Below are positions 34,526 to 34,710 of a stretch of 64,000 bases of DNA, piece by piece. The notes below the pieces were generated by a model. The model saw only the letters and a list, made by a program, of their open reading frames with translations. It made no database searches and had not been told where the DNA came from. Numbering within the stretch: position 1 is the stretch's first letter; each line of letters opens with the position of its first letter. Location: NCBI RefSeq assembly GCF_030127105.1, contig NZ_CP126161.1:372001-436000 (forward strand), in the 5' to 3' direction. Position numbers and translations under genes: made by a program. This stretch comes from Haloarcula pelagica. Lineage in GTDB: Archaea; Halobacteriota; Halobacteria; Halobacteriales; Haloarculaceae.

Positions 34526-34553
34526 TGCGCGGGACCGGATTTGAACCGGCGGA
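34526..34553 (-). repeat. Exact 28-bp copy of the tRNA-Leu 3' end (possible attachment-site scar)
   Basis: 28 bases identical to 34627-34654, which is the acceptor 3' strand plus the whole T arm of tRNA-Leu(UAG). The copy lies 101 bases away on the 3' side of the tRNA gene, in the same orientation. The bases flanking both copies differ, so the identity ends sharply. This is the layout left by site-specific integration at a tRNA gene. Only 73 bases separate the copies, with no integrase, so any element is gone or decayed. Confidence 0.7.
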
Positions 34554-34626
34554 AGAAATGCTCGCTCGCTGCGCGTTCCGTCCGGGGTTCGAATCGGTCC
34601 TGCTCTTCGCTCACTTCGGTCGCTCA

Positions 34627-34710
34627 TGCGCGGGACCGGATTTGAACCGGCGGACCCCTACGGGATAGCGTCCTAAGCGCTACGCCTTTTCCTGGCTCGG
34701 CAACCCGCGC
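34627..34710 (-). tRNA. tRNA-Leu (anticodon UAG)
   Basis: 84 bases with a long variable arm, as expected for leucine. Acceptor stem GCGCGGG/CCCGCGC with discriminator A; D arm GCC...GGC; anticodon arm TAGCG, loop CTTAGGA, CGCTA, giving UAG; T arm GCCGG TTCAAAT CCGGT. No intron and no encoded CCA. The remaining sequence of the 388-base gap between genes (34414-34801) holds only this tRNA and the 28-bp copy of its 3' end. Confidence 0.96.

Follow-up and report, generated by a model that had tools for sequence, protein, structure and literature searches.

In integrons, cassettes with their ORFs stand in arrays marked by attC hairpins; the recombinase acts on folded single strands and needs a double-stranded site, which the hairpin shows. 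REP elements and BIMEs, associated with RAYT transposases, are imperfect hairpins clustered between genes. In archaea, elements targeted to tRNA genes enter at the 3′ half of the gene, the tRNA being restored and a direct repeat of its 3′ end lying on the far side (as described in portions of PMC8371274 and PMC3119063). A detailed catalogue of haloarchaeal repeats exists for Haloquadratum walsbyi, whose PATEs are short, transposase-free palindromic repeats that make no target duplication (PMC3119063, in the sections accessible to us).

Here, we describe the region behind a tRNA-Leu(UAG) gene in a 64-kb stretch of DNA from Haloarcula pelagica (genome G000), hereafter the window. A preliminary description had taken a repeat of the 3′ end of this tRNA for the integration scar of an element since lost. 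Our analysis indicates that the feature is almost certainly a worn member of a family of short, non-coding haloarchaeal units located immediately 3′ of tRNA genes.

Results

A worn unit behind tRNA-Leu(UAG)

The preliminary description rightly reported an exact duplicate of the 3′ end of tRNA-Leu(UAG): the two copies, in the same orientation and with the distal one downstream of the gene, are equal at 28 of 28 bases and are spaced by 101 bp from start to start (Table 1). Allowing up to three mismatches, the 64-kb window has no other match to this 28-bp sequence, and 100 shuffles yielded none. It was also correct in calling the 73 bases between the copies gene-free, as no listed ORF of at least 80 aa overlaps them; the spacer, too short for an integrase gene, holds neither an integrase gene nor cargo. 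What it does contain is an inverted copy of the tRNA T-arm and acceptor strand, together with worn hairpins. In minus-strand order, the 101 nt that follow the tRNA comprise a hairpin (h1), a linker, the inverted arm GGACCGATTCGAACC, a second hairpin (h2) and the 28-bp copy, which in the window reaches into the h2 stem and with which the inverted arm pairs in the predicted fold. That a large element once lay here and was lost is not supported: the spacer is part of a unit whose inverted arm and co-varying hairpins are found in many relatives (see below), and the lost-element reading is mostly wrong because the unit itself includes the 73 bases that separate the copies.

Table 1. Features of the tRNA-Leu(UAG) unit in the window, and unit-like arrangements behind tRNAs in non-haloarchaeal matches (positions are those of the window unless a locus is named)
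Feature	Position	Strand	Evidence
tRNA-Leu(UAG) gene, anchor of the unit	34627..34710	minus	ARAGORN; RF00005 match at G000:C1:406627-406710
Proximal copy of the 28-bp direct repeat (T-arm and acceptor 3′ strand of tRNA-Leu(UAG))	34627..34654	minus	
Distal copy of the 28-bp tRNA-Leu(UAG) 3′ end, closing the unit	34526..34553	minus	
One 101-nt unit, immediately 3′ of tRNA-Leu(UAG), same orientation	34526..34626	minus	R1 match G000:C1:406532-406601, E 1.7e-13, spanning arms and h2 (the unit is itself among the sequences used to build R1)
Hairpin h1, GCGACCGAAGTGAGC, worn stem-GA-NN-loop-NN-GA-stem motif	34607..34626	minus	Sequence, by-eye comparison with relatives
5′ arm GGACCGATTCGAACC, T-arm/acceptor strand of the tRNA in inverted form	34586..34600	minus	Complementary to the tail at 9/11 core positions
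Hairpin h2, flanked by the two arms; shorter at its apex than in relatives	34548..34585	minus	
3′ arm GGTTCAAATCCGGTCC, within the tail copy, pairs with the 5′ arm	34532..34547	minus	Predicted fold
Unit-like arrangement, rumen Lachnospiraceae MAG, tRNA-Ala	L111:671-732		
Unit-like arrangement, Woesearchaeota SURF_65, tRNA-Ser	L143:6377-6440		
Unit-like arrangement, archaeon BMS3Abin16, tRNA-Ala	L154:5294-5366		

The window unit is a worn member of the family. Its fold was not better than that of shuffled sequences, either as RNA (z −0.56; 53 of 200 shuffles as good) or as DNA (z −1.22; 23 of 200). A 129-nt stretch spanning one unit at locus L303 gave an RNA fold with z −3.06, which none of 200 shuffles equalled, and an arbitrary control stretch (L061) gave z +0.88.

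Architecture and pairing of the units

A 401-base query from the window matched 60 of 60 related genomes, a count for which the tRNA by itself would suffice, and many of the matches ran from the first base of the copy to beyond the tRNA. Downstream of the tRNA, the 30 loci read (our own included) contain rows of similar units with differing hairpins, and the units mostly end in an exact copy of the respective genome's own tRNA 3′ end. Units follow one layout, in which h1 and a linker come first, then the tRNA T-arm in inverted form and h2, and last the 3′ end of the host tRNA, copied directly (the tail); the two arms, GGTTCRAATCC and GGATTYGAACC, are those of the tRNA T-arm. The units are about 80-180 nt long, occur singly or in rows of up to five and share the orientation of the tRNA. 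In the window genome they are also present behind tRNAs for Lys, Val, Gln, Met, Arg, Asp, Ser and Pro, and behind further tRNA-Leu genes.

Among 54 candidate units recognized by a tail match, the inverted arm matched at eight or more of 11 positions in 50, as compared with 77 of 1080 shuffled trials. Two misdetections (L031 unit 1 and L029 unit 3) and one misaligned unit (L009 unit 3) were then excluded, and the merging of identical segments left 49 units, of which 45 were aligned with MAFFT (L009 unit 2, L013, L017 unit 2 and L029 unit 1 were dropped, and the first L005 unit was trimmed by 4 bases). With a structure written by hand from the same sequences, 81.2% of the cells of this alignment hold standard pairs, a figure that falls to 48.2% or 38.7% when the partners are moved by one column. 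The alignment shows 117 two-sided changes versus 40.0 ± 8.1 in shuffled controls, none of 500 shuffles being as high.

A larger set of 287 loci, fetched mostly because they bear units and thus giving no measure of prevalence, yielded 266 units by tail match behind 254 tRNAs of 32 isoacceptor types; 237 had a good inverted arm. The arm follows the tRNA: among 196 distinct cases, the combination of tRNA position 57 with its arm counterpart is A:T in 101 and G:C in 82. This tailoring showed a small effect when first scored in a simple way (2.71 versus 2.35; shuffle maximum 2.59). With a scoring that permits bulges, the outward extension of the arm scored 1.82 against the unit's own tRNA versus 1.06 against other tRNAs (sd 0.07, maximum 1.33 in 2000 shuffles, n = 197). 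Of 225 distinct units, 185 contain hairpins with tandem G-A mismatches, for the most part two pairs below the loop, as against 4 of 225 shuffled ones; across the window as a whole such hairpins (stem of at least 5) are not enriched, with two on one strand and none on the other, and 0-1 in five one-strand shuffles. A search of 12 loci with Rfam 15 at gathering scores returned tRNA only.

Some units are more elaborate. In L228 and L306, h1 or h2 is enlarged by what appear to be hairpins nested in the loops of others. In L300 (509-1260), some tRNA-Phe units include part of the anticodon arm and have GA hairpins at the junction of T-stem and T-loop (CCCCG^GTTC), as though a tRNA copy had been invaded by hairpins; the window genome has a comparable relic 3′ of tRNA-Phe (L044).

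Distribution among genomes

A covariance model, R1, was built from the 45 aligned units. In the window genome, it gave 25 matches at E up to 1, 22 of which have E < 1e-3. Nearly every haloarchaeal genome sampled from the class was matched (142 of 145, with up to 31 matches per genome), the exceptions being G044, G068 and G100. As R1 was built in part from genomes that were later searched, a strict pattern (inverted plus direct arm), with the same pattern read backward as the control for spread, is the more independent test. The strict pattern was found in 55 of 392 genomes of the phylum, and the backward-read control was 0 throughout; in a listing read by eye, all 55 are among the 81 genomes of our own order and none among the 311 others. 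H. walsbyi seems to be free of units, as G068, probably a genome of this species, has neither an R1 match nor a strict-pattern match.

A pattern scan across genomes returned at least 119 stretches; among the 80 matches listed, 68 are haloarchaeal and 12 are not. Three of these 12 have a like arrangement behind a tRNA (Table 1), with one matching place per genome, and these three single cases suggest that the principle of tRNA-anchored units may extend beyond the haloarchaea. Of 10 matching stretches in viral contigs, none was judged by sequence to be a haloarchaeal unit, and a search of plasmid records with one unit plus tRNA end gave no match. A separate arrangement, unlike that of the haloarchaeal units, was seen in L102-L105, L108, L127 and L128: a long palindrome that includes a tRNA-Met-like 3′ part (GCGGGGCATGGATTTGAACC...GGTTCAAATCCATGCCCCGC or nearly so), present in Bifidobacterium genomes (L127, L128) and in similar viral contigs.

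Position behind tRNAs and neighbouring integrative elements

In four genomes, 85 R1 matches (all 25 of the window genome, the best 30 of 38 in G092, and 30 of the 52 listed in G006 and G012) were placed relative to tRNA genes; 79 lie within 1500 bp 3′ of a tRNA on the same strand. The remaining six are two weak matches (L096 and L097) and four (L078, L086, L090 and L252) that, by reading, stand behind a 3′ piece of a tRNA. About 21 kb upstream of L086/L090 there is an intact tRNA-Thr(GGT), and about 33 kb upstream of L078 a tRNA-Ala with the same tail; tyrosine integrases (PF00589) are encoded beside the tRNA-Thr (L289:8965-10215) and beside the displaced Ala unit (L290:560-1720). Since these tRNA-unit gaps have tyrosine integrases inside, integrative elements seem to have entered the tRNA-Thr(GGT) and tRNA-Ala genes, pushing the units away. 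Thus, the tRNA-targeting integrases invoked in the preliminary description do have counterparts in its own genome, at these two tRNAs. The element of about 21 kb (L288-L289; G000:C1:1946300-1968200), which parts tRNA-Thr(GGT) from its row of units, encodes a 1430-aa Eco57I/MmeI-like restriction-modification protein near its far end. In the region of about 33 kb between tRNA-Ala and the displaced unit (L290-L291; G000:C1:2613900-2648500), the integrase has SAM-like and catalytic domains, and a short tRNA end copy (about 14 bases) is reminiscent of SNJ2-type elements.

In G118, a 2.1-kb insert (L298:858-3300) lies between two tail copies inside a tRNA-Phe row. Its G+C content is 0.475 versus 0.595 around it, a 19-bp repeat, CAAATCCGGGAGGCGGCAT, is found at both ends, and its three ORFs, when tested, had no Pfam match; the tails of unit rows may serve as insertion sites. 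Also in the window genome, near both ends of C1, two tRNA-Lys(CUU) genes (L033 and L034; G000:C1:64704 and 3501143) share an identical unit and the first 150 downstream bases; the whole 3-kb loci differ, and the pair may be a duplication.

Gain, loss and wear of units

The preliminary description had proposed to look at the tRNA-Leu(UAG) locus of relatives for an inserted element flanked by the 28 bases. Instead, 40 of 54 such loci have one to three tail copies, at spacings of 50-200 nt, and 14 have none, which speaks against a lost element; 29 of the 54 came from the similarity search with the window (25 with units, a sample biased to presence), and 15 of the other 25 have units. It had also counted a constant 101-base spacing in all relatives as evidence against a scar; the repeat does recur in kind, at a spacing that varies from about 80 to 180. 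For tRNA-Leu(GAG), a tail copy was found in 5 of 13 loci.

When exactly 129 nt are removed from the filled locus L023, the remaining sequence is identical at 110 of 110 positions to the empty loci of five genomes (L006, L030, L312, L313 and L314), and matches L008 at 109 and L004 at 92 of 110. Removal of the unit from L024 gave 109, 108 and 91 of 110 against the same three sets, and shifting this excision by one to three bases left a best match of at most 75. A third filled locus, L015, reached only 73-75 of 110, apparently owing to an indel in the flank. In this comparison the filled locus has two tail copies and the empty one a single copy. So much of the scar interpretation stands, in that the tRNA 3′ end is a site of base-precise gain or loss of DNA with a direct repeat; the lost large element is not supported. 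In a tree of 560 bases beside the L023/L024 locus, with six of seven inner branches unsupported, the two genomes with the same unit group together (100/100) among mostly empty ones, a pattern that suggests a gain.

Within rows, the distal tail is more diverged than the proximal one in 24 cases and less so in one, with 21 ties (p 1.5e-6), a polarity of 24 to 1 that gene conversion with the tRNA could equally yield. In the rows of L300, L301 and L303, single units and pairs of units are duplicated in tandem, the copies being identical or almost so. In L304 and L305, from two genomes, units with a common h1 have different h2 hairpins, the switch being at the GGATTTGAA arm. In a comparison that pooled G006 and G012, h2 cores behind different tRNAs were 0.86-0.92 alike (eight pairs above 0.85, the best at 0.92), and none of the pairs compared were identical unit copies behind two different tRNAs. 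Such alike cores behind different tRNAs of one genome suggest transfer between tRNAs.

Discussion

We think it somewhat probable that the members of this tRNA-anchored family are small cassette-like mobile units, which is the best overall explanation at hand; cassette addition by site-specific recombination at the T-arm is proposed because the position of the units, their polarity, their base-precise gain and loss and their tRNA-matched arms all fit. The recombinase mechanism itself is plausible, with a confidence somewhat short of even. Under this mechanism, the units would behave as small cassettes, which a putative trans-acting recombinase, most probably a tyrosine recombinase (Xer/integrase), would join to the T-arm of a tRNA gene; the joining would restore the tRNA and leave a tail copy. 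The folded unit hairpin may present a double-stranded T-arm from a single strand, like the core site of an integron attC. Rows would extend at the tRNA end and decay outward, the h1 and h2 modules would be reshuffled by recombination at the common arms, and tails and arms would stay matched through gene conversion with the tRNA. PF00589 is present in 18 of 18 genomes tested, unit-free ones included, and its presence is hence uninformative about the mobilizer; the loci read showed no autonomous element bounded by h1 and h2. Ordinary recombination between repeats of 21-28 bp could also give precise loss and tandem growth. A more far-reaching proposal, doubtful in our estimation, is that the units represent a new mobile class: gene-free, tRNA-anchored hairpin cassettes of about 100 nt that would move as a folded single strand, use the T-arm as attachment site, rewrite their own arms to match whichever tRNA they join and form rows growing at the tRNA, in an integron-like or CRISPR-like acquisition with the tRNA gene as the leader.

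The main rival to the cassette reading is a role as RNA, in which the units would form, on the sense strand, a structured 3′ trailer of the tRNA transcript and be retained for a function such as processing of the trailer, stability of the RNA or competition for enzymes that bind tRNA, the arms matching the tRNA since pairing in the RNA would be required. We consider this unlikely, if by no means far-fetched: the compensatory changes are strong, the units lie on the same strand directly 3′ of the tRNA, and wobble in the arms leans to the sense strand (88 G.T versus 50 A.C), although these counts take related units as independent. Runs of five T are also scarce inside units (10 in 27.8 kb, versus 24 in 19.1 kb behind rows; there are 10 in 12.2 kb behind unit-free tRNAs), and runs of at least four lie mostly (55 of 71) within the first 10 nt of the unit and are rare past there; A-runs of four are fewer inside units as well (34 versus 43), so that part of the T-run effect is composition. 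A retained RNA function sits poorly with the base-precise presence and absence of units between species, with the 14 of 54 tRNA-Leu(UAG) loci and the three genomes that lack a unit or an R1 match, respectively, and with the shuffling of modules. Passive repeat evolution, which we judge quite improbable, needs no dedicated enzyme: an old hairpin insertion at some tRNAs would have been multiplied, lost and matched to the tRNA through homologous recombination, slippage during replication, template switching and gene conversion. The tandem duplicates of L300, L301 and L303 and the greater likeness of the tRNA-proximal tails are as this account predicts, and the 28-bp copy of the window, in extending into the h2 stem, is as expected from conversion; against it are the 32 isoacceptor types behind which units were found in the loci read, the h2 cores up to 0.92 alike behind different tRNAs of one genome, suggestive of transfer, and the filled pair among mostly empty loci, suggestive of gain.

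Two further explanations are very improbable. That the two copies are the attL and attR of a lost integrative element would agree with a correctly oriented direct repeat of the tRNA 3′ end and with the tRNA-associated integrases of the window genome, but the spacer belongs to a structured unit that recurs behind tRNAs throughout the order, and a chance deletion would not leave an inverted arm and hairpins; as a general account, the lost-element scar was rejected. That the units are palindromic repeats mobilized by an IS200/IS605 or REP-associated Y1 (HUH) transposase is, in our view, just as remote. REP elements are hairpins with mismatches, and the hairpins of the units recall them. A resemblance to the palindromic PATEs described in haloarchaea (sections of PMC3119063) points the same way. 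However, PF01797 had no match (E ≤ 1e-3) in the unit-rich genomes G113, G059 and G056, with 30, 26 and 25 R1 matches, and was matched in G044, G068 and G100, all of them without R1 matches. A Y1 mobilizer was rejected on this opposite pattern of presence and absence; G021, with three R1 matches, also has no PF01797 match, and the window genome has split matches only. A past or very divergent Y1 enzyme in G113, G059 and G056 is possible.

Genomic islands and att sites are called from copies of tRNA 3′ ends; near a haloarchaeal tRNA, such a copy will often be a unit and not a scar. If the units are mobile, archaea own a minimal, gene-free cassette system on their tRNA genes, and the mover of hairpins of about 100 nt becomes testable. 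If they act as RNA, many archaeal tRNAs carry structured, tRNA-matched trailers.

Comparison with known systems

The family has seemingly gone undescribed. No description of it was found among the open full-text papers searched, and a prior description elsewhere is possible; the accessible portions of the papers on Haloquadratum repeats (PMC3119063), archaeal recombinases (PMC8371274), the Islander search (PMC4383910) and tRNA fragments (PMC4390854) do not mention it. Islander discards candidates that are below 2 kb or lack an integrase (PMC4383910, in the part available), and would therefore leave haloarchaeal units unlisted.

Like archaeal elements targeted to tRNA genes (SSV, SNJ2, pNOB8 and those with HF1/HF2-type tyrosine integrases), the units repeat the tRNA 3′ end, in direct orientation, at the far side; unlike them, they are about 100 nt long and gene-free, form tandem rows, contain an internal inverted T-arm and occur as related hairpins behind different tRNAs. 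With the PATEs and other short mobile repeats of H. walsbyi they share being short, transposase-free, palindromic and haloarchaeal (as far as the sections of PMC3119063 describe these). They differ in being tied to tRNA genes, a tie not stated for PATEs in those sections, and in their two tail copies in filled loci versus one in empty loci, that is, in a target duplication. Clustered imperfect hairpins between genes are also a feature of REP/BIME sequences, from which the units are set apart by their tRNA anchoring and tRNA-matched arms and by a Y1 transposase presence that does not track them. They are unlike MITEs in that their boundaries are direct repeats and the inverted arm is internal, with no terminal inverted repeats.

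The attC core consensus is GTTRRRY/RYYYAAC, to which the arms of the units do not conform. They also depart from integron arrays in lacking a cassette ORF, in having a tRNA gene as the anchor and in an arm that follows the tRNA. The rows may grow at the anchored end, as those of integrons do, and the greater wear of distal tails supports this indirectly, although gene conversion with the tRNA could produce it too. As in integron arrays, nonetheless, each unit has a hairpin of its own, whose arms are the inverted form of the presumed recombination site.
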